Positions 9,186 through 24,470 of a DNA stretch of 64,000 bases are shown here, one piece after another. The stretch comes from Oscillospiraceae bacterium. GTDB taxonomy: Bacteria > Bacillota > Clostridia > Oscillospirales > Ruminococcaceae. The notes beneath the pieces were generated by a model. It ran no database searches, was not told where the DNA came from, and saw only the letters and a list, made by a program, of their open reading frames with translations. Positions within the stretch are counted from its first letter, which is position 1, and every line of letters starts with the position of its first letter. The stretch spans positions 3,286,001-3,350,000 of the forward strand of contig BQOK01000001.1 of the NCBI GenBank assembly GCA_022835495.1. The letters run 5' to 3'. Made by a program: the position numbers and the translations under genes.

Positions 9186-10109
9186 TCACTTTTTTTGCAG
9201 CAGCGCGCGGCGGGCGATCAGCACCGCGCCGCTGGCCGCGTCGTTTTGGGGCGAAACGCAGCGCAGCCCCGGCAGCGCGGTCTGCAGCGCCGCGCGCACC
9301 GCCTGCCGCACCGGCGGGCATTTGGCAAGCACGCTGCCCGCCAGCGCCGCACGGGCGTTCTGCAGGCCCAGCTTGTTTGCCACCGGCAAAACCAGCAGCG
9401 CCAGCTCCCGCCCCGCTTTTTCGCAGATCTGCCGGGCCGCGGCGTCGTTTTGTTCCAGCGCCTCGCTCAGCAGCGGCGCCAGGGCCGCGATCTCCCGCTT
9501 GCCCACCCCGGGGGCGTAAACGCGGCCGATCATGCCCCGCACGTCCCCCACGCCCAGCCGGCCGAACACCAGCGGTTCCAGGCAGGTTGCCGGGCCCCGG
9601 CCGTCAAAACCGCGCACCACTGCGGCCAGGATGTCGCGCCCCAGGGCGTAGCCGCCGCCCTCGTCGTCCATCAGGCTGCCCCAGCCGCCCGCCCGGGCCT
9701 CTTCGCCCGCGAGGGTCTGGCCGTAGCAAATGGAACCGGTCCCCGCAATCAGCACCATGCCCCCCGCGCCGCCCAGCGCGCCGTACAGCGCGGTCTGCTG
9801 GTCGCCGGTAAAGCACACCGGGCCGGCATAGCCGCCCTGCTCCAGCGCGGCCCGCAGCCGCTGTTCGGTGGCCGGGTTGCTGATCCCCGCGGCCCCCACG
9901 CACAGCATGCGGCAGCCCGCAAGCCCGCCCGGCAGGGCGGCCATCTGTGCCAGCAGCCCTGCGGCGGTGGCGTCCGCCTGGCCGGGCACCGTGCCGTTGG
10001 GGTTCAGCGGCCCGGCGGTAAATCGCAGCGTTTCGCCGCCTGCCAATTCCCGCACCTCGCAGATGGTTTTGGTCCCACCGCCGTCCCAGCCGGCAATGTA
10101 TTCTTTCAT
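9186..10109 (-). CDS. murK: BadF/BadG-type N-acetylhexosamine kinase (MurK-like)
   Basis: 307-residue sugar kinase of the BadF/BadG/BcrA/BcrD ATPase family (ASKHA fold). Motifs: phosphate-1 loop AGWDGGGTKT at residues 6-15 and the phosphate-2 loop LIAGTGSICYG. Family members include human-type NagK and Clostridium acetobutylicum MurK, which phosphorylates MurNAc and GlcNAc at O6. The setting (murQ, namZ, nagZ, anmK and an RpiR regulator) points to MurNAc/GlcNAc kinase activity that makes MurNAc-6-phosphate for MurQ. Sequence alone cannot exclude glucosamine or plain GlcNAc kinase. The start was placed at 10109 because AGGAGAGGAAG lies just upstream and the fold begins at once. Confidence 0.85.
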   Translation of the reverse strand: MKEYIAGWDGGGTKTICEVRELAGGETLRFTAGPLNPNGTVPGQADATAAGLLAQMAALPGGLAGCRMLCVGAAGISNPATEQRLRAALEQGGYAGPVCFTGDQQTALYGALGGAGGMVLIAGTGSICYGQTLAGEEARAGGWGSLMDDEGGGYALGRDILAAVVRGFDGRGPATCLEPLVFGRLGVGDVRGMIGRVYAPGVGKREIAALAPLLSEALEQNDAAARQICEKAGRELALLVLPVANKLGLQNARAALAGSVLAKCPPVRQAVRAALQTALPGLRCVSPQNDAASGAVLIARRALLQKK

Positions 10110-10198
10110 CACACACACTTCCTCTCCTGCGTCCTTTGGTTTTTCCAAAAACAGCCCGGAAACGCCGAAATCTTTACTCACTTTTGCCGCGGTTCTGC

Positions 10199-10249
10199 TA
10201 TAATAAGAGCAGTGCGAAACTTTATTTCAAAAAACGGTCGTTTTGTCAA
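10199..10249. promoter_or_regulatory. divergent murK/anmK promoter with RpiR-type operator
   Basis: Plus strand: extended -10 TGC-TATAAT with TATAAT at 10199-10204, serving anmK. Minus strand: TTGACA (10244-10249), a 17-base spacer and AATAAA, serving the kinase gene. Between them, at 10214-10230, lies GCGAAACTTTATTTCAA, an imperfect inverted repeat of the form GAAA-N5-TTTC. It would cover the anmK start region and the -10 of the kinase promoter, a repressor position. The same element recurs at the transporter promoter at 24432-24448. Confidence 0.7.
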
Positions 10250-10282: not shown

Positions 10283-11458
10283 ATGAACTTTTCCAAAACC
10301 GAACCCCACATCGTGCTGGGGCTCATGAGCGGCACCAGCGCCGACGGCATCGACGCGGTTGCCGTTCGCATTGCGGGCTGCGGCCTCGATACCGCGGTGG
10401 AGCAGCTTGCCTTTGTCACCCTGCCCTTTGCAGACGGGGTTCGCGCCCGCATCCTCGCCCTGGCGGGGGGCTGCGCTGCAAACAGCCGGGAGTTCTGCCT
10501 GCTCAATTTTCTGCTGGGCGAGCTGTTTGCCGACGCCTGCGAAGCGGTGTGCCGGGCCGCGGGCCTGCGCCCGGAACAGGTGGATTTTGTGGGCAGCCAC
10601 GGCCAGACCTTCTGGCACGAGCCCGCCGGGGCCGAATACCTGGGCCGCACGGTGCGGGCCACCCTGCAGCTGGGCGAAGCCAGCCTGATCGCCGAGCGGC
10701 TGGGCTGCCCCGTGGTGAGCGACTTCCGCGTGCGCGACATGGCCGCCGGGGGCCTGGGCGCGCCGCTGGTGCCCTATACCGAATACCTGCTTTACCGGCA
10801 GCGGGACCGCACCGTGGCGCTTCAGAACATCGGCGGCATCGGCAACATCACCCTGCTGCCCGCCGGGGGCCGCCTGTGCGACACCCTCGCCTTCGACACC
10901 GGCCCCGGCAACATGGTCATGGACGCGCTCGCCGCGCGCATGACCGGCGGCAAACAGCGCTACGACGAAGGCGGCCGGCTGGCGGCCGGGGGCCGGGTGA
11001 GCGAAACGCTGCTGGCATACCTGCTGCAAACCGACGGCTACCTCAACCTCGCGCCCCCCAAGACCACCGGCCGGGAATATTACGGCGAGGGCTTTGTAAG
11101 CGCACTGTGGGCCAAAGGCGCGGAGCTGGGCCTTTCCGGGGCGGACATTCTGGCCACCGCCACCCGCTACACGGCCGAGACCATCCGGCTGGCGGTCGAG
11201 CGCTTTTGCCCCGTGCGGCCGGACCTTCTCATCGTGGGCGGCGGCGGCAGCCGCAACCCGGTGCTCATGGCCCATCTGGCCGCGGCCCTGCCCGGCTGCC
11301 AGGTCATGACCAACGAGGGCCTGGGCCTCAACAGCGACGCCAAAGAGGCCGTGGCCTTTGCGGTGCTGGCCAACGAGGCCATGGCGGGCCGCTGCAACAA
11401 CGCCCCCAGCGCCACCGGCGCCGCGCACCCGGTGGTCATGGGAAAAATCTCATTTTGA
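10283..11458 (+). CDS. anmK: anhydro-N-acetylmuramic acid kinase
   Basis: 391-residue cytoplasmic kinase that opens the 1,6-anhydro ring of anhydroMurNAc and phosphorylates it to MurNAc-6-phosphate, the substrate of MurQ. Signature motifs are present in order: LGLMSGTSADGIDAV at the N-terminus, GSHGQTFWHEP, QNIGGIGNITLLP and FDTGPGNMVMD. Length fits the family (about 370-390). The start at 10283 follows GGGAGGG by 7 bases. It heads a three-gene operon with the serine hydrolase and the RpiR regulator. AnmK is best known from Gram-negative recycling, where lytic transglycosylases make anhydro-sugars; here it may serve scavenging of neighbours' wall fragments (inference). Confidence 0.95.
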   Translation: MNFSKTEPHIVLGLMSGTSADGIDAVAVRIAGCGLDTAVEQLAFVTLPFADGVRARILALAGGCAANSREFCLLNFLLGELFADACEAVCRAAGLRPEQVDFVGSHGQTFWHEPAGAEYLGRTVRATLQLGEASLIAERLGCPVVSDFRVRDMAAGGLGAPLVPYTEYLLYRQRDRTVALQNIGGIGNITLLPAGGRLCDTLAFDTGPGNMVMDALAARMTGGKQRYDEGGRLAAGGRVSETLLAYLLQTDGYLNLAPPKTTGREYYGEGFVSALWAKGAELGLSGADILATATRYTAETIRLAVERFCPVRPDLLIVGGGGSRNPVLMAHLAAALPGCQVMTNEGLGLNSDAKEAVAFAVLANEAMAGRCNNAPSATGAAHPVVMGKISF

Positions 11459-11488
11459 ACCGTATTTTTCAAGGAGGCCTGACCCGCC

Positions 11489-12553
11489 ATGTTTGAAACT
11501 GCCTGTTCCCTGCTGCAGCATGCGGTGACCGCCGGGCGCTGCCCAGGCGCCGCGCTCGCCGTGGGCTGCCGCGGCCGGCTGCTGGCGCAGGCGTATTTTG
11601 GCACCATGGCCCCGCTGGACGCCCCGTTTGAGCCCGTGGGGCCCCACACGGTATACGACCTGGCAAGCCTGAGCAAGGTGGTGGCGGCCACCACCCTGCT
11701 GCTGCAGGACTTTGCGTCCGGGGCCCTTTCGCCGCAGGACCCGCTGCGCCGCTTTTTTGCCGGGGCCGGCCCGCAAAAGGGGGCGCTCACCCTGGCGCAG
11801 CTGCTCACCCACGCCGCGGGGCTGAAAAGCTGGGCCCGGCTGGACCTGCTGGGCCCGCCCCCCGCCGCCGCGGCCGAAACCATTCTTTCCATGCCCCTGG
11901 CCTGTGCCCCCGGCAGCCGAGTGGTATACAGCGACCTGGGCTTTATTTTGCTGGGCCGCGTGCTGGAGCTGGTGCACGGCGCGCCCCTGCCCCAGCTGGC
12001 GCAGCAGCGGGTGTTTGCGCCGCTGGGCATGGCGCACACCGGCTACGCGCCCGCGCCCGCCCTGTGCGCCCCCACCGAGCGGGATGAGCGGGGCGCTTGG
12101 CTGCGGGGCGTTGTGCACGATGAAAACGCCCAGTTCCTCGGGGGGGATTCCGGCAATGCGGGGGTGTTTTCCACCCTGCCGGACCTCGCCCGCTACGCCG
12201 CGGCGCTGGCCTGCGGCGGCAGCCTGGAGGGGGTGGAGCTTGTACCCGCCGCCACGCTGCGCGCAGCCTGCCAAAACGCCACCCCGGGCCTTGGGCAAAA
12301 CCGGGGGCTGGGCTTTCAGCTGGCGGGCGCGCCGGGCGATTTTTTCGGGCCGCTGTTCAGCCCCGCCGGGTTTGGGCACACCGGCTTTACCGGCACCAGC
12401 CTGGCCGTGGATCCCGCCGGCGGGCTGTTTGTGGTGCTTCTCACCAACCGGGTGCACCCCGCCCGGCAGCCCGACCGGTTCGCGGGCCTGCGGGCCGAAA
12501 TCCACAGCGCCATTCTCCAGGAGTGGCGCGCGCAGCAAGGAGGAAACACATGA
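11489..12553 (+). CDS. class C beta-lactamase-like serine hydrolase
   Basis: 354-residue serine hydrolase of the beta-lactamase/PBP4* (S12) superfamily. The SxxK nucleophile motif is SLSK (about residue 60), the second motif is YSDLG, and HTGFTGTS near the C-terminus takes the place of KTG. There is no signal peptide, so it should act in the cytoplasm. In Bacillus subtilis the murQRP-amiE-nagZ-namZ cluster also holds a protein of this superfamily, assigned as a MurNAc-L-alanine amidase. By position, the present protein may likewise strip peptides from MurNAc (inference). AAGGAGG lies upstream; its stop overlaps the regulator start by 4 bases (ATGA). Confidence 0.85.
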   Translation: MFETACSLLQHAVTAGRCPGAALAVGCRGRLLAQAYFGTMAPLDAPFEPVGPHTVYDLASLSKVVAATTLLLQDFASGALSPQDPLRRFFAGAGPQKGALTLAQLLTHAAGLKSWARLDLLGPPPAAAAETILSMPLACAPGSRVVYSDLGFILLGRVLELVHGAPLPQLAQQRVFAPLGMAHTGYAPAPALCAPTERDERGAWLRGVVHDENAQFLGGDSGNAGVFSTLPDLARYAAALACGGSLEGVELVPAATLRAACQNATPGLGQNRGLGFQLAGAPGDFFGPLFSPAGFGHTGFTGTSLAVDPAGGLFVVLLTNRVHPARQPDRFAGLRAEIHSAILQEWRAQQGGNT

Positions 12554-13416
12554 CCAACGTGGAGGCGCGCATCCGCAGCAGCTACGGCAGCCTCAGCGAC
12601 ACCGAGCGCAAAGCGGCCGACTACTTTTTAAACCACATGGAGGCCAGCTATTCCCTTCCCATCGCCCAGCTGGCGCAGGAGGCGGGGGTAAGCCCCACCG
12701 CCTGGGTGCGGCTCTGCAAGGCCGTGGGCTACGAGGGTTTGAAGGAAATGCGCAAGCATCTGCTGGTGGAGCGCATGAACGAACCCCAGGACGCTCCCGA
12801 AGACAAGCGCTATTTCTCCGATCTGAACGAGGGCAGCGATGTGGCCCAGATTCTGCAAACGGTGTCCAACACCAGTATACAGGCAATTCGCGACACTGCC
12901 AAGATGCTGGACCAGAATGCGTTATATCAGGCGGCCAACTGCATTTTAAAGGCCGCCACCATCCGGCTGTTTGGGGTGGGCGCCTCGGCCCTGGTGGCCG
13001 AGGACCTGTATCACAAGCTCACCCGCATCAACCGCTACGCCATGTTCAGCCGCGACAGCCATGTTCAGCTTAGCTACAGCTCCACCCTTTCCCAGCGGGA
13101 TGTGGCCGTGTTCGTGTCCAACACGGGCGCCACCCAGGAAACGCTGGAAACGCTGCGGGCCGCAAAACAGAGCGGCTGCCGCACCATCGGCATCACCCGG
13201 TATTCAAAAAGCCCGCTGGCCGCGGGCTGTGACATTCTTTTATATACCGTGTCGCCGGAGGTGTATGTGCGCAGCGGCGCCATGAGCAGCCGAATGGCCC
13301 AGCTCATGACCGTGGACGTGCTGTTCACGCTGGTGGCCAGCAAGGATTATTCCGCCATTCAGCAGCCGCTGGAAAACAGCTATAAAATCTGCCAGACCCA
13401 CCGGGTAAAGGAATAA
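12550..13416 (+). CDS. RpiR-family transcriptional regulator (MurR-like)
   Basis: 288-residue regulator with an N-terminal RpiR helix-turn-helix (about residues 1-77; LSDTERKAADYFL and the recognition helix AGVSPTAWVRLCKAVG) and a C-terminal SIS sugar-phosphate-binding domain (about residues 120-270; GVGASALVAEDLYHKL and SNTGATQETLE). RpiR proteins respond to phosphosugars; MurR of E. coli responds to MurNAc-6-phosphate. The gene lies among MurNAc genes and is translationally coupled to the serine hydrolase, with AAGGAGG 6 bases before the ATG. It is the likely reader of the GAAA-N5-TTTC repeats at 10214 and 24432. Confidence 0.92.
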   Translation: MTNVEARIRSSYGSLSDTERKAADYFLNHMEASYSLPIAQLAQEAGVSPTAWVRLCKAVGYEGLKEMRKHLLVERMNEPQDAPEDKRYFSDLNEGSDVAQILQTVSNTSIQAIRDTAKMLDQNALYQAANCILKAATIRLFGVGASALVAEDLYHKLTRINRYAMFSRDSHVQLSYSSTLSQRDVAVFVSNTGATQETLETLRAAKQSGCRTIGITRYSKSPLAAGCDILLYTVSPEVYVRSGAMSSRMAQLMTVDVLFTLVASKDYSAIQQPLENSYKICQTHRVKE

Positions 13417-13430
13417 GCGCACGCCCCGCC

Positions 13431-14177
13431 CTATCCAAAGAAAACATCCATTGCATGCTTCAGCTGCCCGTCCCAATACGCCCATTCGTGGGCGCCGGGG
13501 CCCGCGCAAAAGGTGTGAGGGATGTTTTTTTGTGCCAAAAACCCCGCCAACTCCCGGTTTACGGGGTACAAAGGGTCCTGCTCGCCGCAGGCGAGATACA
13601 GTCGGGGCAGCGGCGCGGCGGCGGCTTCGGCCAGGGCAAACAGATCGCTCTCGGGCGGGATGCGCCCCCGGGCCAGCCCCGGGCCGAAAATGGCCTGGCC
13701 CGCCGCCGCGTCCAGCGGCCATTCCGCCGAGCCCACCAGCGTTTCCGGCCGCACCGCGGCCGAAAACGCCGCGCAGCCCGCGTATTGCCCGGGAAAGGTC
13801 AGGGCGCATTTCAGCGCCCCATAGCCCCCCATTGAAAGGCCGAACACATAGTTTTGCTCCCGCTTTCGGCTCAGGCCGAACAGCCGCGCGCACTCGGCGG
13901 GCAGCTCCCCGGTAACAAACCTGAAAAACTGCGGGCCGCAGGCCATGTCCGCATAATAGCTGTTGCGGGCGTCGGGTGCCACAAGGACCACGTTTTTTTC
14001 CGCGGCGTAGCGCTCGGCCGCAGTGAACCGCAGCCAGCCGCTGCCGTCGTCCGACGCGCCGTGCAGCAGCAGCACGACCGGCGCCTCACCCGGCGCGCCC
14101 TGCTCCGGCAGCACCAGCCGCACCCGGCCCTGCCCGCCCAGGGTCTTGAACCGGTGTGTAAATTCCACAAGGGCCAT
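13431..14177 (-). CDS. alpha/beta-hydrolase esterase (EstA/esterase D-like)
   Basis: 248-residue cytoplasmic hydrolase. The oxyanion region is LLLHGASDDGSGW, the nucleophile elbow is GLSMGGYGA and the catalytic His lies near the C-terminus in GAHEWAYWD. It resembles the esterase D/tributyrin esterase group, which deacylates short acyl esters and sugar acetates. It is the last gene of the long operon and starts 12 bases after the NagZ stop. In this setting it may remove O-acetyl groups from MurNAc, a common wall modification (inference). It is convergent with the regulator gene, with 14 bases between the stops and no clear terminator. Confidence 0.85.
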   Translation of the reverse strand: MALVEFTHRFKTLGGQGRVRLVLPEQGAPGEAPVVLLLHGASDDGSGWLRFTAAERYAAEKNVVLVAPDARNSYYADMACGPQFFRFVTGELPAECARLFGLSRKREQNYVFGLSMGGYGALKCALTFPGQYAGCAAFSAAVRPETLVGSAEWPLDAAAGQAIFGPGLARGRIPPESDLFALAEAAAAPLPRLYLACGEQDPLYPVNRELAGFLAQKNIPHTFCAGPGAHEWAYWDGQLKHAMDVFFG

Positions 14178-14189
14178 GCTTTTTGCCCC

Positions 14190-15740
14190 CTATCGCAACC
14201 GGGCCAGCGGCAGCCTGCCCTGGGGCGGCGTTTTGCCGCACAGCACCGGCCAAAGCGCCCGGAACATGGCGGGCGTGTATTCCCAGGCGGCCAGCCCGGC
14301 CACATGGGGCGGCAGCTCCGCCAGATCGTAGGGATTGCGCAGCGCCACCAGGATCATGGGCAGCCCGGTGGCGGCCAGCGCCCGGGCCAGCCGGAGCTGG
14401 CCCTTTAAAATATGGCCGTTGTAGGTGCCCAGAACAAGGCAGCTGTGCCCGGCGGCCTGGGCCGTGATCGCTTCGATCTCGGCGTCCGTGGGGTCCTTGG
14501 GGGTGACCAGCGCCTCGCCCGCGCCCGCCAGCCCGCGCATTTCCTCGGCAAAGGTAAAATTGCCGCTGGCGGCGCTGGAGGCGAGGGTGCTGCGGTAGTC
14601 CGGGCAGCCCAAAAACAGGGGCGTTTCGCCCAGCGGGGGCAGACCGCCCTGGGGCAGCTGCACGGCGGTGACGCTTTTTTGCCGCAGCCCGCGCACGGCG
14701 GCGCGGCACTGCGCGTCGCTGGGCGTGCCGCGCACCGGGCCCAGGGCGGCGCACCGGGCCTTGTGCTCCAGGATGCGCCGCGCGCTCTCCTCCAGCTGCA
14801 CCCGGTCCATGCGGCCCTCCGCCAGGGCCTCCTCCGCTTTGACCACCGCCTCCCGGGCCAGCGCCGCCGTGTGCGACACGAACACCAGATCCACCCCGGC
14901 GTTCATGGCCGCCAGCACCCCGTTCACGGTGCCGTAATGGGTGGCGATGGCCTGCATCTCCATGCAGTCCGAAATCACCAGCCCCTCAAAGCCCAGACGG
15001 CCCCGCAGAAGGTCGGTCATGATCGCGCGGGACATGGTGGCCGGCACCCCGCCGGGCTCCAGCTGGGGAAACAGGATGTGGGTGCTCATAACCGCGGGCG
15101 CGCCCGCCGCAATGCCCGCCCGGAAGGGGATCAGCTCCCGCTGTTCCAGCTCCTCCAGCGATTTGTCAATGCAGGGCAGCCCGATGTGGGAGTCCACCGC
15201 CGTGTCGCCATGGCCGGGGAAATGCTTCAGGCTGGCGTAAACGCCGCCCTCGGTCAGCCCCTTCATCATGGCCGTGGCGTACCGGGCCACAGCGGCGGGG
15301 TCGTCGCCGTAGCTGCGCACCCCGATCACCGGGTTGTCGGGGTTCGAGTTCACGTCCATCACCGGCGCCAGGTCAAAATCCACCCCCAGCGCCCGCAGCC
15401 GGCAGCCGGTCAGGTAGCCCATTTCATAGGCGTTTTCTTCCCCGCCCGCGGCAGCAATGGCCATGGCCCCGGGGGGGTTGGTGGTATCGTCCGGCAGGCG
15501 GGTCACAACGCCGCCCTCCTGGTCAATAGTAATAAAGGGCTCCGCGCCGGTCGCGGCGCAAATGCGCCGCCGAAGCTCGGCGCAAAGGGCGGCAAGCTGT
15601 TCCTCGCTCTCAATGTTGTGCCGGAACAGAATGATGTTCCCCACCTTGTATTCTTCCACCAGCCGGATAAACTCCCCGTCCAGTTCCCTCCCCGGGAAGC
15701 CCACCACCAGCTTTTGGCCGATCATTTCGCGCAGGGTCAT
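14190..15740 (-). CDS. nagZ: GH3 beta-N-acetylglucosaminidase NagZ
   Basis: 516-residue family 3 glycosidase that removes non-reducing GlcNAc from GlcNAc-MurNAc fragments. The diagnostic NagZ motif KHFPGHG-x4-DSH, which holds the Asp-His acid/base dyad, and the nucleophile Asp in LVISDCMEMQA are both intact. It is longer than Gram-negative NagZ because it has the C-terminal domain found in Gram-positive members. No signal peptide is present, whereas B. subtilis NagZ is secreted, so it should act on imported material. The start at 15740 is set by AGGAGGA 8 bases upstream, 23 bases after the NamZ stop. Confidence 0.94.
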   Translation of the reverse strand: MTLREMIGQKLVVGFPGRELDGEFIRLVEEYKVGNIILFRHNIESEEQLAALCAELRRRICAATGAEPFITIDQEGGVVTRLPDDTTNPPGAMAIAAAGGEENAYEMGYLTGCRLRALGVDFDLAPVMDVNSNPDNPVIGVRSYGDDPAAVARYATAMMKGLTEGGVYASLKHFPGHGDTAVDSHIGLPCIDKSLEELEQRELIPFRAGIAAGAPAVMSTHILFPQLEPGGVPATMSRAIMTDLLRGRLGFEGLVISDCMEMQAIATHYGTVNGVLAAMNAGVDLVFVSHTAALAREAVVKAEEALAEGRMDRVQLEESARRILEHKARCAALGPVRGTPSDAQCRAAVRGLRQKSVTAVQLPQGGLPPLGETPLFLGCPDYRSTLASSAASGNFTFAEEMRGLAGAGEALVTPKDPTDAEIEAITAQAAGHSCLVLGTYNGHILKGQLRLARALAATGLPMILVALRNPYDLAELPPHVAGLAAWEYTPAMFRALWPVLCGKTPPQGRLPLARLR

Positions 15741-15763
15741 GGCGCAGTTCCTCCTGTTTGTAT

Positions 15764-16918
15764 TCAATAAAGATGAAATGGCTCCTTGCGGCGGGCAAAC
15801 TGCTCCTGCTCCCGCCGCTGCCGCTCCAGCAGCGCCGCGGCGGTCCAGCCCGGCCGCTCAAACTCCCGGTGGCCTGCCAGCAGCGAGATAAACGGCCGGC
15901 CGCCCTCGCGCACCGGCGGCAAAAAGGCAAACTCCTTTTCGTGGCGGTCCCGCACCAGCTCCAGCAGGGTCAGCGCCGCCGCCAGCGGCCGCAGGGCTTC
16001 GGGGTCGGTCACATGCAGGTGCACGCCGCCGCACACCTGCCCCTTGTGCTTGGAGGTGGTCGGCTCAAAGTACTGGGGCGTGGCCAGAATGCCCGGCAGC
16101 TTTTTCTGGTTGAACGCAGCGGCAAGGCCCTCCACGTCCTGAATGTAAGGCGCGCCCAAAATGGCAAAGGGGTCCGCGGTGCCCCGCCCCTCCGAAAGGT
16201 TCGTGCCCTCGAACAGGCAGGTGCCCGCGTACAAAAACGCCGTTTCAAAACGCGGGAGGTTCAGGCTGGGCAGGATCCAGGGCCTGCCCCAGGCAGGGAA
16301 CATTTCGTCCCGCCGCCAGCCCTCGCAGGGGATCACGGTAAGCTCACACCCAAGCGCCCGCTCCCGGTTCGCCATGCCGGCAAATTCGCCCGCCGTGAGG
16401 CCGTAGCGGTTGGGCAGCGGGTAGCAGCCCACAAAGCTGGCAAGCTCCTGTGCCAGCAAATTCCCCTCCACAATCCGGCCGCCCAGGGGGTCCGGCCGGT
16501 CCAGCACCACCAGGCGCTTGCCCGCGCGGGCACAGTCCTCCACCGCGTACAGCAGGGTCGACAGGAAGGTGTAGTACCGGCTGCCCACATCCTGGATGTC
16601 GTATACCAGCACGTCAAAGGCGTCCAGCATTTCCGGGGTAAACCGCTTGGAATCCGCCCCGTACAGGCTGTAAACCGGCAGGCCGGTAGGGCCGTCGGTG
16701 TAGTGGGGAACCAGCGCGCCCGCGGCAAATTCGCCCCGCACCCCGTGCTCCGGGCCGAACAGGGCGCACAGCCTGCACACCCTGCCCAGCGCGGCAATGG
16801 TGGCCTCACCCGCCCCGGTGCGGCCGGTGGGGGTGGTAACAAGCCCCACCCGCGCGCCCTTAAAAAGCGCGGCGTATTCTTGCAGCCGGTCTGCGCCGAC
16901 GCAAAGCTTCTGTTCCAT
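15764..16918 (-). CDS. namZ: DUF1343/GH171 exo-beta-N-acetylmuramidase NamZ
   Basis: 384-residue member of the former DUF1343 family, now known as the exo-acting MurNAc hydrolase NamZ. Recognised by GLVTTPTG, LFGPEHGVRG, VYDIQDVGSRYYTF and the DRPDPLGG motif. NamZ releases MurNAc from the non-reducing end once NagZ has removed GlcNAc, so the two work in turn. No export signal is seen. It lies between murQ and nagZ in the operon; the ribosome site is a modest AGAGG, fitting translational coupling to MurQ 14 bases upstream. Confidence 0.93.
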   Translation of the reverse strand: MEQKLCVGADRLQEYAALFKGARVGLVTTPTGRTGAGEATIAALGRVCRLCALFGPEHGVRGEFAAGALVPHYTDGPTGLPVYSLYGADSKRFTPEMLDAFDVLVYDIQDVGSRYYTFLSTLLYAVEDCARAGKRLVVLDRPDPLGGRIVEGNLLAQELASFVGCYPLPNRYGLTAGEFAGMANRERALGCELTVIPCEGWRRDEMFPAWGRPWILPSLNLPRFETAFLYAGTCLFEGTNLSEGRGTADPFAILGAPYIQDVEGLAAAFNQKKLPGILATPQYFEPTTSKHKGQVCGGVHLHVTDPEALRPLAAALTLLELVRDRHEKEFAFLPPVREGGRPFISLLAGHREFERPGWTAAALLERQRREQEQFARRKEPFHLY

Positions 16919-16932
16919 GGCTCACGCCTCTT

Positions 16933-17838
16933 TCAGCTTTTTATTTCGCCCAGCGCGGCCGCCACCCGGCCCTTGGCGCCTTCCAGCCGCCGGGCCGCCT
17001 CGGCCGCGTCTACCCCGGCCCGCACCATCACAATGGCGGTCTTGGCGCTGTATTCGCACTGCTCCAGCGCCGCCCGGGCCTGGGCCTCGGTGCACTCGGC
17101 GGCGGTGCACACGATGGACACGCACCGCTGCACCAGCTTTTCGTTCGAGGGCTTCACGTCCACCATCAGGTTTCCGTACACCTTGCCCAGGCGGATCATG
17201 GTACAGGTGGAAAGCATGTTCAGCACCATTTTTTGGGCCGTGCCGCTTTTCATGCGGGTGGAACCGGTAACCACCTCGGGCCCCGGCGTGGGCGCAATGC
17301 CCACATCCGCCAGCTGGTCGATCTCGCTGCCGGGGCAGCAGGTCACGGCCAGCACCGCGCCGCCCTTCTGGCGGGCATACCGCATGGCGCCCAGCACGTA
17401 GGGGGTGCGGCCGCTGGCCGCAATGCCCACCAGCACGTCCTTTTCGCCAAAATGAATGGCCTCAAGGTCCTCCCGGCCCAAAGCGGGGTCGTCCTCCGCG
17501 CCCTCCACCGCTTGGAACACGGCGGGCATTCCCCCCGCAATCAGTCCCTGCACCAGCTCCGGGTCGGTGGAATAGGTGGGCGGGCACTCCACCGCGTCCA
17601 GAATACCCAGCCGGCCGGACGTGCCCGCGCCGCAGTAGATTAGGCGGCCGCCGCCGCACATTTTTTCGCAGATCAGGTCAATGGCCGCCGCAATGTGCTC
17701 GGTTTCCCGCTCCACCGCCAGCGCCACCTTCTGGTCCTCCCGGTTGATCAGGCGCACCATATCGCAGCTGGAAAGCGTGTCGATGTTCGCCGTCGCTTCG
17801 TTGCGCTGCTCGGTTGCGATCTGTTTCAGCTCAACCAT
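16933..17838 (-). CDS. murQ: N-acetylmuramic acid 6-phosphate etherase MurQ
   Basis: 301-residue SIS-domain lyase that cleaves the lactyl ether of MurNAc-6-phosphate to give GlcNAc-6-phosphate and D-lactate. The phosphosugar site GAGTSGRLG (residues 70-78) is intact. Glu84 in VECPPT and Glu115 in GAED match the two catalytic glutamates described for E. coli MurQ. A strong GAGGAGG site precedes the ATG. It joins the products of the MurK-like kinase and AnmK to glycolysis through GlcNAc-6-phosphate; nagA and nagB are not in the window. Confidence 0.97.
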   Translation of the reverse strand: MVELKQIATEQRNEATANIDTLSSCDMVRLINREDQKVALAVERETEHIAAAIDLICEKMCGGGRLIYCGAGTSGRLGILDAVECPPTYSTDPELVQGLIAGGMPAVFQAVEGAEDDPALGREDLEAIHFGEKDVLVGIAASGRTPYVLGAMRYARQKGGAVLAVTCCPGSEIDQLADVGIAPTPGPEVVTGSTRMKSGTAQKMVLNMLSTCTMIRLGKVYGNLMVDVKPSNEKLVQRCVSIVCTAAECTEAQARAALEQCEYSAKTAIVMVRAGVDAAEAARRLEGAKGRVAAALGEIKS

Positions 17839-17886
17839 ATAACAACCTCCTCAGGGTCTGCTTTGCCGCTTTGTGAAAGGCGGCGT

Positions 17887-19215
17887 TCACACGATCTTAT
17901 GTTTTTGCCACGCACCCGAGCGCAGCCGCAGGCTGAACAGCACCGCGCGCACGCCCCAGTCGCAGAAAATGGTCATCCAAATACTCACCACGCCCCAGCC
18001 CAGCCCCAGCACGAACAGGCAGCTCAGCCCCACCCGGCACACCAGCATGGACGCAATGCTCACCGCCATGGTAAAGCGCACGTCGCCCGCGGCCCGCAGG
18101 GCGCTGGGGGTGCAAAAGCCTGCCGGGTAAAACAGGGTGGCGAACAGGCAGTGCCAGGCCAGCAGCTCCCGCACCACCGCCGTGGTCTCGGCGGAAAGGG
18201 CGTACAGGCCGCTCAGCTGCGGCAGGAACACATACACCAGCAGGTTCGCCGCCAGCATCAGCCCATAGGCCGCGCGCAGCAGCTTTGCCGCCAGGCGTTT
18301 TGCCTCCTCCGGCTGGCCCGCGCCCACGGCGCGGCCCACCACCGGCAGCATGGCAAGGCTCAGCGCACCGCCCGGCAGGGTGGCAATGCAGGAAAGCGCC
18401 CCCGCGGCCGCATTGGCCGCCAGGGCCACCGTGCCCAGCCCCGCATACAGCCGCTGTACCAGCAGCTTTCCCAGGCTGAACAGGCCGCTCTCCACCCCGC
18501 TGGGGATCCCCACATACAGGATCTTGCCCAGCATTTCCCTGCATTCGGCCAGCCGCACCGGCTGCTTTTGGGGCGCCGCAAGCATCCCGCTTTTTGCCAG
18601 CAGAACACACAGCAGCGCGGCGGCCCCGCCCCGGGCGATCAGGGTGGCAAGCGCCGCGCCCGCCGCGCCCATGCCCTTGCCGTAGATAAACCATGCGTTG
18701 CCGGCCACGTTCAGGCCGTTCATCAGCAGGCTGGCCGCCAGGGTGACCATGCTGTTGCCCTGGCTTCGGAACAGGGCCGCCGCCGCGCTGTAGGCCGCCA
18801 AAAACGGGAAGCTGCACCCAATCAGGGCAAAATACTCCCGGGCGCTGCGCATGACCTCCGGTTCCACCCGGCCAAAAATCAGCGCCAGCAGCCCGTTGCC
18901 GCACAGCAGCACCAGCGCCGCCATGGCCAGGGCAATCGCCAGGGTGCTGCCCATCAAAAGCCGGGCCGCCAGGCTCACGCGCGCCCGGTCGCCGCTGCCG
19001 CTGTACTGGCTGGCCAAAATCGAGCCGCCCGCGCACAACGCGCCGAACACCGCCACCACCAGGTAGCTGATCGTGTCCACCAGGGCCACGCCCGAAACGG
19101 CGCTCTCTCCCGCATGGGCCACCATAAAGGTGTCGGTAATGCCCACCAGCACCACCAGAAACTGCTCGCCGAACAGCGGCGCCACCAATCGCACCAGTTG
19201 TTTGCTCGAAAACAT
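17887..19215 (-). CDS. MATE-family efflux transporter in the MurNAc operon
   Basis: 442-residue integral membrane protein with about twelve hydrophobic helices in two pseudo-repeats and the MATE pattern near the N-terminus (LVRLVAPLFGEQFLV, then DTISYLVVAVFGALCAGGSIL). MATE proteins export drugs or metabolites with Na+ or H+. The start at 19215 lacks a good ribosome site but lies 4 bases after the PIG-L stop, so translation is probably coupled. Its place inside a wall-sugar operon is unusual; it might export a waste product or a wall fragment, but nothing in the sequence names the cargo. Confidence 0.9.
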   Translation of the reverse strand: MFSSKQLVRLVAPLFGEQFLVVLVGITDTFMVAHAGESAVSGVALVDTISYLVVAVFGALCAGGSILASQYSGSGDRARVSLAARLLMGSTLAIALAMAALVLLCGNGLLALIFGRVEPEVMRSAREYFALIGCSFPFLAAYSAAAALFRSQGNSMVTLAASLLMNGLNVAGNAWFIYGKGMGAAGAALATLIARGGAAALLCVLLAKSGMLAAPQKQPVRLAECREMLGKILYVGIPSGVESGLFSLGKLLVQRLYAGLGTVALAANAAAGALSCIATLPGGALSLAMLPVVGRAVGAGQPEEAKRLAAKLLRAAYGLMLAANLLVYVFLPQLSGLYALSAETTAVVRELLAWHCLFATLFYPAGFCTPSALRAAGDVRFTMAVSIASMLVCRVGLSCLFVLGLGWGVVSIWMTIFCDWGVRAVLFSLRLRSGAWQKHKIV

Positions 19216-19219
19216 TTTT

Positions 19220-19909
19220 TTACAGAGCCCGGATCTGTCTCTGCTCCTCCGGCAGCACCATAAACGTCTCGGCGTACCCCTTTCGGGCCTCAATGCCCCG
19301 CAGGCGTTTCAGGTGGGAATAATACTCGTAATAGGGAAAGCTGGTGGAACCGGTCACAAACCAATGGGTCTGCACCGCCTCCTGCCACAGCGCAAAGCCC
19401 TCGCCGCTCACCTGTGCGTAAAGATACGGGCGGTAGCCGGTGGCGTCCTCCCAGTTTTCCGCAAAGTACAGCCGGGCAAAATGCGCCGCGCCGCTTCGCT
19501 CAAAGCCCGGGGTGGCCGCATAGAACCAGGCGTCGTGCACAATGCGGTGGCAGGCTGCGTGGTCCTTGTGCATGGACTCGGCATGGTGGGTCAGGATCAC
19601 ATCCGGCTTTACCGCGCGGATCACGTCGCACACCGCAAAGCGGGCCGCGTCATCGTCGGCCAGAAGGCCGTCCGGGTAGTCCAGCACATGGGCCTCGCCC
19701 CCCAGCTTCTCTGCAAAGGCGCGGGCCTCGGCGCATTTTTGCTGCCGGTATTCCGCAATGTCCCGCCCGGCGGGCACGCCCTTTTCTCCCGCCGTCAGCG
19801 CCAGGGTCACAATGCGTCCCCCCTCCAGCGCACAGGTGGCAAGGGTTCCGCCCACCGTCAGCTCCATATCGCCCACATGGGCGCCAATGGCCAAAATGGT
19901 TTTTGCCAT
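19220..19909 (-). CDS. PIG-L/LmbE-family deacetylase with altered catalytic motif
   Basis: 229-residue protein of the PIG-L superfamily, Zn-dependent N-deacetylases of GlcNAc-type substrates. The metal motif AHPDD of active enzymes reads AHVGD here (residues 8-12): the zinc-binding His and second Asp are kept, but the first Asp, the usual general base, is Gly. The distal histidine motif HKDH is present. This variant may be inactive, use another base or act on another bond. The start at 19909 follows AAGGAAAGGAA. It lies between the GNAT gene and the MATE gene, so it was probably selected with amino-sugar use. Confidence 0.85.
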   Translation of the reverse strand: MAKTILAIGAHVGDMELTVGGTLATCALEGGRIVTLALTAGEKGVPAGRDIAEYRQQKCAEARAFAEKLGGEAHVLDYPDGLLADDDAARFAVCDVIRAVKPDVILTHHAESMHKDHAACHRIVHDAWFYAATPGFERSGAAHFARLYFAENWEDATGYRPYLYAQVSGEGFALWQEAVQTHWFVTGSTSFPYYEYYSHLKRLRGIEARKGYAETFMVLPEEQRQIRAL

Positions 19910-19938
19910 GCTTCTCGTTCCTTTCCTTGCGGCGCGGC

Positions 19939-20904
19939 TCACAGCTCTTTCACAAGCACGCCAAAGCTGCGCACCTGCTCAAAGCCCGCGCTCTCGTAAA
20001 TTTTGCGGGCGTGGTTGGTCTCGCCGGTAAACAGCGACATATACCGCGCGCCCGCTTCCTTTTCGGCCTGGCACAGCCGGAAGAACAGCAGCCTTCCCAG
20101 CCCGCGGCCCTGGTACGCGGGCGCGATCCCAATGCCCGCAAAGTATCCCCTGCCGGTCGGCTCTGGGTAAACCGGCCCGGCAAATCCGGCCACCACGCTG
20201 CCGCAAAGCGCCACGGGAAGCAGCTGCCCGGTGCGCCCGGCCTGGGTGATCTGGGCGGTCCAGTCCGGGTTTTCCAGCGCCGCCAGCATCTCTTCCAGGC
20301 CGGTGTGCCGGCCGGGATCGTAGGGCTGCACGGTGCAGCCGTCGGCCGCAAGCCGCGTTTCCAGCGCCTTGATCTCGGGCGGCAGGGCAAAATCCTCCAG
20401 GCTGCGGTACATGGCGCACTCGCGGGCGGCCTCGGTATAGCCCTGGGCCAGCATTCGGCTGTGCAGCGGCAGCCCGGCGGCCACCCCCGGCATGTTGTTG
20501 TGCTCAAAGCCGGGCGTGCCCGGGATCACCCAGGGCAGCCGCATGGGGTTAAAAAAGGTCACCGCGCTGTACCGCTTGCCCGCCGCACAGAACGACTCCT
20601 CCAGCGCGGCGAACATGTCCGCGCAAAGCGCGGGGGTGTCCAGCGCTTCGTCCGCCAGAAAACAGGTAAAGTACCCCCGCTCGCCGCCCCGGGGAATGTC
20701 GTCGCCGGTGCAGCCGCAGATGAACGCGCCCACGCCGCCCCCGTTTTCCCACACAAAGGCGTGCCGGCTGTTAAAATAGGGGTGCTCGAACAGCAGCGGG
20801 CCCAGCTGCCCGGGCGTGCGGGGGGCATACCCCTGCCGCACCGCGCTGCGCTGCCACAGGGCCGCGACGGCCGGCCGGTCGGCCGGAATATAATTTCTCA
20901 GCAT
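19939..20904 (-). CDS. GNAT-family N-acetyltransferase (tandem domains)
   Basis: 321-residue acetyltransferase. The C-terminal half has a clear acetyl-CoA site: IGIAPAYQGRGLGRLLF (motif A, Q/RxxGxG) and the following ARKIYESAGFE (motif B). The N-terminal half looks like a second, degenerate GNAT domain, seen in many Firmicute proteins of this length. The acceptor is unknown. In this operon an amino sugar such as de-N-acetylated GlcN or muramic acid is an attractive acceptor (inference). It begins 24 bases downstream of the MalG-type permease stop. Confidence 0.85.
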   Translation of the reverse strand: MLRNYIPADRPAVAALWQRSAVRQGYAPRTPGQLGPLLFEHPYFNSRHAFVWENGGGVGAFICGCTGDDIPRGGERGYFTCFLADEALDTPALCADMFAALEESFCAAGKRYSAVTFFNPMRLPWVIPGTPGFEHNNMPGVAAGLPLHSRMLAQGYTEAARECAMYRSLEDFALPPEIKALETRLAADGCTVQPYDPGRHTGLEEMLAALENPDWTAQITQAGRTGQLLPVALCGSVVAGFAGPVYPEPTGRGYFAGIGIAPAYQGRGLGRLLFFRLCQAEKEAGARYMSLFTGETNHARKIYESAGFEQVRSFGVLVKEL

Positions 20905-20928
20905 ATGCAGACCTGTTCCTTCCTGGGC

Positions 20929-21798
20929 TCAGCCCTTAACCGCGCCCACGGTAACGCCTTCCAAAAAGTACTTTTGCAGGCAGAAAAACAAAACGAACAT
21001 CGGCATGGCGCTGATGGTCGCGCCCGCCATCATGGGGCCAAACAGGGTGGTATTGGCAAATTTGAACTGCTTGAGGCCCACCTGGATGGTGTACATGGCC
21101 TCCTTGGAGGTGGCCAGGAAGGGCCAGAAGAAATTGTTCCAGCTGCTCAAAAAGGTGGTGATTGCCAGCACCGCCAGAATGGTTTTGGAAAGGGGCAGGA
21201 TGATGCGGCAGAAGATCCCCATCTGTGTGCAGCCGTCCAGCTTGGCACTCTCGATCAGGGCGGTGGGGATGCTGCTGAAGAACTGCTTGGTCAAAAAGAT
21301 GCTGTAGGTGGTAACCAGGCCCGGCAGAATCAGGGCCATGTAGGTATTCGACATTTTGAAGTTGTTCACGATCAAAATGTAAAGGGGCACCTGGGTGACC
21401 TGGTAAGGGATCATCATGCCCACCATGATCAGGTAGAACAACACGTTTTTGCCTTTAAAATTCAGCTTGGCAAAGGCGTAGCCCGCCATGCTGGCAAACA
21501 GCACGTTGCCAATCACCTGGAACACAGCCACCACAAGGCTGTTCCAAAGCCACCTGCTGCTGTATTTGCTGAAATCGAAAAAGGCTTTATAAGAGTCCAG
21601 GCTCCAGGAGGAGGGCAGGATGCTGCGCGAGGAACCGGCCGCCTCCACCGCGGGGCCAAAGGAGTTGGCGATCATATAAAACAGCGGAAATAGGCAGGCT
21701 ACGGCCAAAAGCAGCAAAAAGGCGACCAAAAGGGTGTTTCGCAGATATCGCGCCTTTTTGTTGTTCACATGCTGGGAATACAAACCGGTGGTTGCCAT
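20929..21798 (-). CDS. ABC sugar transporter permease (MalG type)
   Basis: 289-residue inner-membrane permease with six predicted helices. The EAA loop that contacts the ATPase reads ESAKLDGCTQMGIFCRIILP. It pairs with the MalF-type protein encoded just upstream (15-base gap). As in most Firmicute carbohydrate importers, no ATPase gene is present; a shared MsmX-type ATPase elsewhere in the genome is assumed. By context the system should carry MurNAc-containing sugars or muropeptide glycans, which would be a new specificity for this family (inference). Confidence 0.93.
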   Translation of the reverse strand: MATTGLYSQHVNNKKARYLRNTLLVAFLLLLAVACLFPLFYMIANSFGPAVEAAGSSRSILPSSWSLDSYKAFFDFSKYSSRWLWNSLVVAVFQVIGNVLFASMAGYAFAKLNFKGKNVLFYLIMVGMMIPYQVTQVPLYILIVNNFKMSNTYMALILPGLVTTYSIFLTKQFFSSIPTALIESAKLDGCTQMGIFCRIILPLSKTILAVLAITTFLSSWNNFFWPFLATSKEAMYTIQVGLKQFKFANTTLFGPMMAGATISAMPMFVLFFCLQKYFLEGVTVGAVKG

Positions 21799-21813
21799 GT
21801 CGTCCCCTCCCCC

Positions 21814-22779
21814 TTAATATTCAACGTCCGAACCAGCTACTTTGAACTGGAAGAACGATATGGCCGCAATGATGATGGTCAGGATCACCGCCTGGGCACA
21901 GGCCAGGCCGTACTTGTTGTATTTGAAGGCGTTGTTGAAAATCAGCAGGCCGATCATGGTGGTGTTGTTGTCCGGCCCGCCGCCGGTCATCATGTAGGCG
22001 TTCATGAACACCTGGAAGGAACCGATCACGCCGGTGACCAGCAAAAACAGGGTGGTGGGCTTGACCAGCGGGAACACGATGAACCGCACCTTCTGCATAA
22101 AGCTGGCGCCGTCCAGCTCGGCGGCTTCAAAATAGGTGTTGTCAATGCCCAAAAGGGCCGCGGTATAAATAATGATGTTCTGCCCCTGGCCGCTAAGCAG
22201 CGCCATAATGATGAGCGAGAGCATCGAGGTCTTGCTGGAACCCAGCCAGTTCTGGGTGGGCAGGTGGAACACGGTGAGCAGCTGGTTGAACAGGCCCGTG
22301 GGCGAAGCGTCGTAGATCCACAGCCACACCACGCTCAGCGCGATCCCCGAGGCCACCGCCGGCAGGTAGTACATGGCCTTGAACACCGACTGCAGCTTTT
22401 TACCAAAGGGCATAAACATAATTGCCACCGCAAACGAGAGCAGCAGCGAAACAGGCACCACCACCGCGGTGTAAACCAGGGTGTTCTTCATGGATTTCCA
22501 GAACAGCTCGTTCTGAAAGGTGGTTGCATAATTTTCCAGCCCCACAAAATCCGAGCCGAAGGGCTTGTAATTTTCCAGGCTGGTCTTCAGCGCCGAAAAC
22601 AGCGGATAGATCGTAAACATCACAAAGAACACCAGGGCCACCGCAATGAACAGGTACCCCCACAGATCGTCGTTTGTGAAAAAGCGCCGCCTGCGGCGCA
22701 GTGCGGTCCCGCCGGCCCCGTTGCAGCTCACCGGGCGTTGTTTTGTGGGAGCCCCCGCGCCCGAACCCTTATATTTCAT
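21814..22779 (-). CDS. ABC sugar transporter permease (MalF type)
   Basis: 321-residue permease: a basic cytoplasmic N-terminus (Arg cluster RRRRRFF), a first helix at about residues 40-62, and five further helices. The EAA loop is EAAELDGASFMQKVRFIVFP. It forms the translocation channel together with the MalG-type partner. It follows the binding-protein gene after a 146-base gap that holds a terminator-like hairpin. Confidence 0.93.
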   Translation of the reverse strand: MKYKGSGAGAPTKQRPVSCNGAGGTALRRRRRFFTNDDLWGYLFIAVALVFFVMFTIYPLFSALKTSLENYKPFGSDFVGLENYATTFQNELFWKSMKNTLVYTAVVVPVSLLLSFAVAIMFMPFGKKLQSVFKAMYYLPAVASGIALSVVWLWIYDASPTGLFNQLLTVFHLPTQNWLGSSKTSMLSLIIMALLSGQGQNIIIYTAALLGIDNTYFEAAELDGASFMQKVRFIVFPLVKPTTLFLLVTGVIGSFQVFMNAYMMTGGGPDNNTTMIGLLIFNNAFKYNKYGLACAQAVILTIIIAAISFFQFKVAGSDVEY

Positions 22780-22856
22780 TCAAAAGCACCTCCTGTGAAT
22801 CATGAAAATCGGAAGAAAAGGCCGGCATAAAAAAGCTTTGTTTTTGCCCAAGAGGC

Positions 22857-22888
22857 AAAAAAGCGGCCTGTCCTTTGCAGGACAGGCC
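22857..22888 (-). terminator. attenuator-like hairpin between binding protein and permeases
   Basis: On the minus strand GGCCTGTCCT-GCAA-AGGACAGGCC is followed by GC and six T. A second small hairpin, TTTTTGCC/GGCAAAAA, overlaps the T run (22841-22861). Such partial terminators allow more binding protein than permease to be made. Confidence 0.75.
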
Positions 22889-22925
22889 ACCTGCCCATAT
22901 GGGCTTTCCCTCGTGCAGAAAACGA

Positions 22926-24335
22926 TCAGGTCAGATCGCAGTTTGCCTCGCCGAACGCGGCGGTGCCCTTGGAAACGATCTCGTCGTACATCGCCTGCGC
23001 GGTCACCTCGCCGGCCAGCAGCGCCTGGAACTTGGGCACAATGACCTCGTCCATGATCTGCTGCGCGGTGGCGCTCTGCTCGGCGGTGATGCCGGTGGGA
23101 GGCGCGATCACGGTGGTGATCATGCGGGCGGCGCAGTCGATGTTGCCCTGGTCCCGCTCGCCCACGTCCATGGTGGCCAGCGCTTCGCGGGAGGTCTTGC
23201 TCACGCCGTCCAGGCAGGTCGCGGCGTCCACATAAGCGGCGCGCTCACCGGAGGACAGGAAGTACAGCGCCTTCATCACGTTCTGGGTGTGCTCCTCAGA
23301 GGTGTTCTGGTTGCGGAAGGCCACCAGGCCGTCCACCGAGCCAAAGCAGGTCTCGGTAACGCCCTCCATGGTGGGCACGGGCAGGAACGCATAGTTCACG
23401 GGGATCGAGTTCTCCACCGCGGTGCCGTCGTTGGCCTCCAGGGCGGCGTTGTTCTTGGTGATATTGATCTCAAACAAAGGCATTGCCTTGCCAAAGATCA
23501 TGGCGTTGCCGGTTTCGCACATCACCATGCGCTGCGAAGCCTCCACGCCGTAGTTGGGCATGTAGCCCGAAGCGGTCATTTCCTCCACCGCCTTGAGCAG
23601 GTCCAGCATTTTGGTGCTGGTGTAGGCATATTTCAGATCCGAGGTGAAAGCGTTGTTCAGCCCGGCGCTCACGCCGAAGATGGTCAAAAAGTCAGACGCG
23701 GTCACGCCGGAGTTGGCGAACACGAACCCAAAGCAATCCTTGGTGGTGCCCGCCTTGATGGCGGCCATGAATTCCTCGTAGGTCCAGCCGCTGGACTGCA
23801 CCTTGGCAACGTCCACGCCGGCAGCGGCGAGCATATCCTTGTTGGCGCCCAGCGCCTGGATGGTGATGTACAGCGGCAGGCCGTACACATTGCCCGCAAT
23901 GGTCATGTAATCCAGCGCGTTCTGGTCAAAATCGGCCAGCAGGGTGGGATCCATCACCTCAGACAGGTTCAGCGCGGTGCCGTTCTCCACATAGGTACCG
24001 ATGGCCGCATACGACATTTCGGCAATGTCCGGCGCCTCGCCGGCGTTGGCCATGGTGGAGAGCTTGGTGTTGTGGTCGTCCCAGGAGGTGCCGATGACTT
24101 CCATGGTCAGGTTCGGGTACATCTCGTGGAACTCGGCGGCCCACTCGGTCATCTTTTCCAGATAATCGTTGGTCACGGGGGGCACCAATACGGTAATGGT
24201 GTCTTCCGCCCCAGCGGTGGAAGACGCGCCGGAGGCCGGCGTGGACGCGGGGGCGCTGGACGCCGCCCCGCCGCAGGCGGTGAGCAGGCTGACCAGCATC
24301 AGCACCGCCAAAGACAAAGCCAGAAACTTTTTCAT
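22926..24335 (-). CDS. ABC transporter solute-binding lipoprotein of the MurNAc operon
   Basis: 469-residue family 1 extracellular binding protein. Signal peptide MKKFLALSLAVLML ends in the lipobox LLTAC; an Ala/Ser/Pro linker follows (residues 22-45). The mature protein holds typical Trp- and Tyr-rich sugar-contact regions. The start at 24335 has AAAGGAGG upstream; longer in-frame starts would destroy the signal peptide. It is the first gene of the ten-gene operon and sits behind a near-consensus promoter. Its ligand is inferred, not seen: MurNAc, GlcNAc-MurNAc or a deacylated muropeptide. Confidence 0.93.
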   Translation of the reverse strand: MKKFLALSLAVLMLVSLLTACGGAASSAPASTPASGASSTAGAEDTITVLVPPVTNDYLEKMTEWAAEFHEMYPNLTMEVIGTSWDDHNTKLSTMANAGEAPDIAEMSYAAIGTYVENGTALNLSEVMDPTLLADFDQNALDYMTIAGNVYGLPLYITIQALGANKDMLAAAGVDVAKVQSSGWTYEEFMAAIKAGTTKDCFGFVFANSGVTASDFLTIFGVSAGLNNAFTSDLKYAYTSTKMLDLLKAVEEMTASGYMPNYGVEASQRMVMCETGNAMIFGKAMPLFEINITKNNAALEANDGTAVENSIPVNYAFLPVPTMEGVTETCFGSVDGLVAFRNQNTSEEHTQNVMKALYFLSSGERAAYVDAATCLDGVSKTSREALATMDVGERDQGNIDCAARMITTVIAPPTGITAEQSATAQQIMDEVIVPKFQALLAGEVTAQAMYDEIVSKGTAAFGEANCDLT

Positions 24336-24398: not shown

Positions 24399-24470
24399 AT
24401 TGTATTCTTTTTTCATAAAAGTGTCAATATATTGAAACTTTATTTCAAAATCGGTTTGAACTTTTGTCAA
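24399..24470 (-). promoter_or_regulatory. promoter and RpiR-type operator of the MurNAc transport/catabolic operon
   Basis: Minus strand: TTGACA (24422-24427), 17-base spacer, TACAAT (24399-24404), a near-perfect sigma-A promoter. Immediately upstream, at 24432-24448, is TTGAAATAAAGTTTCAA, an inverted repeat (TTGAAA-N5-TTTCAA). A second TTGACA lies at 24465-24470. From that TTGACA to TTTC the arrangement TTGACAAAA...ACCG...TTTTGAAATAAAGTTTC is the same as at the murK promoter. Confidence 0.78.

Follow-up and report, generated by a model that had tools for sequence, protein, structure and literature searches.

The closest described systems are those of Escherichia coli, Streptococcus pneumoniae and Bacillus subtilis. 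For E. coli MurR, a tetramer has been proposed to bridge two sites that lie 17 bp apart and span 47 bp over the -35 and -10 elements (PMC12713135). This separation and span correspond to 32 bp from centre to centre, equal to the spacing found in the window, that is, the whole 64,000-nucleotide stretch of an Oscillospiraceae genome (contig BQOK01000001.1) analysed here. The E. coli murR / murQ-murP-yfeW divergon resembles the window in that murQ and the gene of a PBP4B-type hydrolase lie next to an RpiR regulator, but MurR is ~27% identical to the regulator of the window (P0001), uptake is by a PTS in E. coli and by an ABC system with kinases in the window, the regulator gene of the window lies within the anmK operon, and the palindrome GAAA-N5-TTTC, described below, is absent from the E. 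coli murR-murQ spacer. NanR of S. pneumoniae recognizes an 18-bp near-palindrome, TCTGAAAGTACTTTTAGA, with a degenerate half-site nearby (PMC12713135). It shares a TGAAA half-site with the sites of the window, but is an activator whose effector is N-acetylmannosamine-6-phosphate, and its palindrome is of even length with the additional half-site ~23 bp downstream. In B. subtilis, the murQ-murR-murP-amiE-nagZ-namZ (ybbC) cluster has the pathway genes in common with the window and likewise encloses a MurR-like regulator (PMC5061867); it differs in using PTS uptake, and our comparison with it concerns the genes. In the open papers searched, we found neither a literal GAAA-N5-TTTC consensus string nor a described operator of this kind for Clostridia.

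The window carries an island of MurNAc genes with two candidate operator sites, A and B (Table 1). The original prediction described these sites as flanking two divergent gene sets, whereas the two main sets converge (10283 to 13416 and 24335 to 13431), with 14 bp between their convergent ends. The divergent pair is instead found at site A, where the gene of a BadF-family kinase (10109 to 9186) is transcribed away from anmK (from 10283 onward). Because the kinase gene diverges from anmK at this site, there are three transcripts for the two sites, and the boundary of the island moves out to position 9186.

Table 1 Candidate control elements and genes of the MurNAc island, in window coordinates.
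Feature	Position	Strand	Remarks
BadF/BadG-family sugar kinase	9186..10109	-	PF01869; weak NagK match; transcribed away from site A
Extended -10 TGCTATAAT, anmK promoter	10196..10204	+	Read from sequence; -35 poor
Possible -10 TATTAT, BadF kinase promoter	10200..10205	-	Read from sequence; weak
Site A primary operator (candidate) GCGAAACTTTATTTCAA	10214..10230		Between BadF kinase gene and anmK; unique in the genome together with site B
Site A candidate weak partner TCAAAAAAACTGGTCAA	10246..10262		32 bp from primary; weak by itself, singled out by spacing alone
anmK, anhydro-MurNAc kinase	10283..11458	+	First gene of the operon carrying rpiR
Serine hydrolase, beta-lactamase/PBP4B type	11489..12553	+	4-bp overlap with rpiR
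RpiR/MurR-type regulator P0001	12550..13416	+	HTH_6 and SIS domains
Site B operon: SBP, two permeases, GNAT, LmbE, MATE, MurQ, NamZ, NagZ, esterase	13431..24335	-
SBP operon promoter TTGACA-17-TACAAT	24399..24427	-	11/12 matches
Site B weak partner ATGAAAAAAGAATACAA	24400..24416	-	32 bp from primary; overlaps -10; aligns with GTGAAATAATAATACAC of locus L065
Site B primary operator (candidate), TTGAAA-TAAAG-TTTCAA (- strand)	24432..24448		Perfect palindrome

Several features of the long operon merit separate mention. The importer encoded at 20929-24335 comprises a binding protein (SBP) and two permeases with no ATPase gene seen in the operon, and would need a shared MsmK-type ATPase from elsewhere. 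A hairpin of 14 pairs with a T-rich stretch after it (22861-22892, - strand) separates the SBP gene from the first permease gene and is likely to act as a partial terminator or mRNA-stabilising element, which would allow an excess of binding protein. The GNAT, LmbE-type deacetylase and MATE genes of the window occupy 17887-20904; GNAT and LmbE-type genes also lie amid MurNAc genes at L104 (3590-5255) and at L079/L114, joined at L114 by a MATE gene. Given this recurrence in other genomes, the three genes probably belong to the pathway.

The identity of the two sites is exact. The inverted repeat GAAACTTTATTTCAA occurs at 10216-10230 and at 24434-24448, precisely where it had been predicted, and the identity extends to a 17-nt run, GAAACTTTATTTCAAAA (10216-10232 at site A, 24434-24450 at site B); in 2000 paired shuffles of these promoter regions, no common word was as long. 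The complete TTGAAA-N5-TTTCAA is present only at site B (24432-24448), while site A reads GCGAAACTTTATTTCAA. The genome-wide motif search that the original prediction had proposed as a check confined the exact motif to the island: across the whole 3.76-Mb genome, the pattern WTTGAAATAAAGTTTCRM has two matches at 0 mismatches, sites A and B, none at one or two mismatches, and 21 at three mismatches versus 16 for a reversed control, which is background only. The exact motif, being present only at the two island sites, is therefore not one that occurs at many unrelated promoters. The looser TGAAA-N5-TTTCA is found at 12 places genome-wide versus two for its reversed control; one is site B, and the other 11 fall within called genes (eight) or outside them (three). 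Among the latter, the palindrome at 1809114-1809128 (L088) lies upstream of another sugar-binding-protein gene, its right arm overlapping a possible -35 with TATAAT downstream, and is possibly the operator of another regulator or a point of cross-talk.

To follow the sites in relatives, we sought P0001 orthologs in family and wider genome contigs and obtained RpiR proteins 41-57% identical to it, most of which adjoin murQ, anmK, namZ or nagZ; an order-wide search gave no further close ortholog. We then took the promoter regions of eight ortholog loci, with the window excluded, and counted every 4-mer palindrome that had a spacer of 0-12. GAAA-N5-TTTC was the commonest promoter palindrome, present at five of the eight loci, and in 300 shuffles neither it nor a pattern of any other kind attained that count. 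It again ranked first, at 9 of 17 loci (0/300 shuffles), when nine loci with 33-40% identical regulators were added. In the closest relative, L065 (RpiR 57%, SBP 68%), the SBP promoter carries GTGAAATAAAATTTCAT 5 bp upstream of TTGACA-17-TACACT, and alignment of this promoter with that of site B shows the palindrome, the -35 and the -10 region to be kept. An identical 13-mer, GAAATAAAGTTTC, lies between rpiR and namZ at L072. Further sites were seen at two SBP promoters, those of L072 and L073, and at the L077 operon promoter. At L071 and L073, the sites in the namZ/anmK spacer are degenerate only.

The repeat had further been described as part of a longer element, TTGACAAAA...ACCG...TTTTGAAATAAAGTTTC, common to both sites. 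Its parts are indeed shared, but their spacing is not fixed, and the element is only loosely common to A and B. The 9-mer TTGACAAAA, found beyond both sites at 10241-10249 and 24462-24470 (- strand), is an unusual thing to share (29/5000 shuffles), but it starts 19 nt before TTGAAA at site A and 22 nt before it at site B, with ACCG shifted too. We rejected TTGACAAAA...ACCG as a second promoter or a conserved part, given no fitting -10 on reading, the 3-bp difference in spacing and no equivalent seen in the printed ortholog promoters. The extra feature that recurs is instead a second, weaker site at a distance of 32-33 bp from the primary.

Weaker copies near the primary site are found at site B (ATGAAAAAAGAATACAA, 32 bp), L065 (GTGAAATAATAATACAC, 33 bp), L072 (GTGAAATAATGGTTCAC, 32 bp) and L073 (TTGAAACATTTGTTCCT, 29 bp), and at both B and L065 the weak partner covers the -10. 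When offsets of 18-79 bp from the primary were scanned at 14 sites and compared with 1000 shuffles, the 31-33 window ranked first of 60, with the best value at any offset reached in 2/1000 shuffles and the value at 32 in 0/1000. For the eight strict sites the any-offset figure was 45/1000, and for the six strict ortholog sites alone 32 bp was not the best offset (30/1000 at that offset). Nine sites at other, previously unused RpiR loci placed 32 first of 60 offsets (0/1000 at 32, 190/1000 at any offset), a replication that was not fully blind because partners in some of the nine had already been seen. The twin-site spacing is supported statistically by this enrichment; as a layout over the promoter, the 32-bp pair is present at B and weak at A.

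P0001 scores above the gathering thresholds of both PF01418 and PF01380, which correspond to an N-terminal RpiR-type HTH and a C-terminal SIS domain. Its domains make it a member of the RpiR family, as does the palindromic candidate operator at the promoters of neighbouring sugar genes. It is classed as a MurR-type regulator by gene context, namely linkage of the RpiR gene to murQ and other MurNAc genes, seen in the window and in most ortholog loci. It is not the E. coli MurR equivalog (NF012026), against which it scores 114 bits with a curated cut-off of 408 bits.

We consider the repeat a probable operator for the RpiR/MurR-type repressor that the island itself encodes, with a strong palindrome and a weak copy 32-33 bp away that a tetramer would hold until released, probably by MurNAc-6-phosphate. 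In the circuit that we infer, one RpiR tetramer would grip the strong and weak sites, three helical turns apart. At site B, where the primary ends 4 bp before the -35, the pair would straddle the -35 and cover the -10, repressing the operon from SBP to esterase. At site A, the primary lies downstream of the extended -10 TGCTATAAT, centred at ~+11 of the promoter for anmK, the hydrolase and rpiR, and would also cover the -35 region of the putative BadF kinase promoter. Since the operon beginning at site A includes rpiR, the regulator would control its own gene. Imported muropeptides and MurNAc would be converted to MurNAc-6-phosphate by AnmK and probably by the BadF kinase; this compound, probably the effector judging from family knowledge and gene content, would bind the SIS domain and release the repressor, and MurQ would reset the circuit by removing the inducer.

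Repression is the most economical reading of the sign of control, but the strong site upstream of the -35 at B and L065 would also suit an activator. Under this alternative, RpiR would act with dual sign: at site A, which follows the -10, it would repress anmK-rpiR, and from site B it would activate the transporter operon, like S. pneumoniae NanR, which activates from a position upstream of its promoter. The primary is centred at approximately -48 in the window and -49 at L065, it lies at -58 to -60, one helical turn further, at L068, L070 and L108, and an RpiR activator with an upstream site has been described (PMC12713135). However, the weak partner lies over the -10 at B and L065, both promoters are near consensus and should need no help, and at L071-L073 the sites of the SBP promoters fall within the promoter or beyond it. 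This last placement, which also holds for the anmK promoters at site A and L066, is as would be expected for a repressor. Activation from site B is accordingly less likely than repression, and we regard the dual-sign arrangement as unlikely.

The sites might alternatively be bound by another regulator, such as a different RpiR paralog of the genome, which contains six further RpiR-like matches. Palindromes of a similar kind also precede RpiR genes without murQ, at L111, L003, L005 and L098; L098 is in the same genome, and there another RpiR paralog is preceded, at positions 10658-10703, by two palindrome-like sites, GCGAAAAAAATTTTCAA and ATGAAAAATTTCTTCAT, at a distance of 29 bp. The half-site is probably common within the RpiR family by its distribution, and specificity may lie in the operator centre and flanks. 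As this type of palindrome is not private to MurNAc regulators, binding by P0001 alone is putative. Against a different regulator, the genome has no exact copy of the motif outside the island encoding P0001, the palindrome turns up again alongside orthologs of P0001 in other genomes, and neither A nor B has a cre-like CcpA site, so that we judge such a binder to be quite improbable. Control by CcpA through cre was rejected on the same absence, the two weak matches elsewhere being fewer than expected by chance. The core of the original proposal, the island RpiR as the likely binder of a two-site local regulon, is well supported by motif confinement and ortholog recurrence. That the repeat arose by chance, or is a duplicated piece of promoter devoid of a regulatory role, is barely credible: both sites do lie in AT-rich spacers (40-44% GC versus 64% in the window) and palindromes of the loose form are found elsewhere, for the most part within coding DNA, but the 17-nt identity is unmatched among the shuffle pairs and the palindrome was recovered independently in relatives, where its footprint makes chance unlikely.

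The conserved pair of sites is real, its role as the operators of a MurR-like repressor is well supported, and the circuit that they would serve is an ordinary one; the 32-33 bp twin spacing is the part beyond expectation in an otherwise known kind of circuit. The island's gene cluster scavenges the bacterial cell-wall sugar MurNAc, and the two identical candidate switches that bracket it provide a concrete candidate operator and, for a complete muropeptide-scavenging island of Clostridia, a control circuit that can be tested. More tentatively, and with somewhat more doubt than confidence, we propose that clostridial RpiR operators share a general layout, in which a strong GAAA-N5-TTTC is accompanied by a weak copy at a distance of 32-33 bp, or three helical turns, with the geometry reported for the distant E. 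coli MurR despite differing sequence. The spacing of the twin sites points to a simple rule by which RpiR-controlled genes might be predicted and, if this general layout holds, would represent a family-wide tetramer constraint that helps to predict RpiR regulons.
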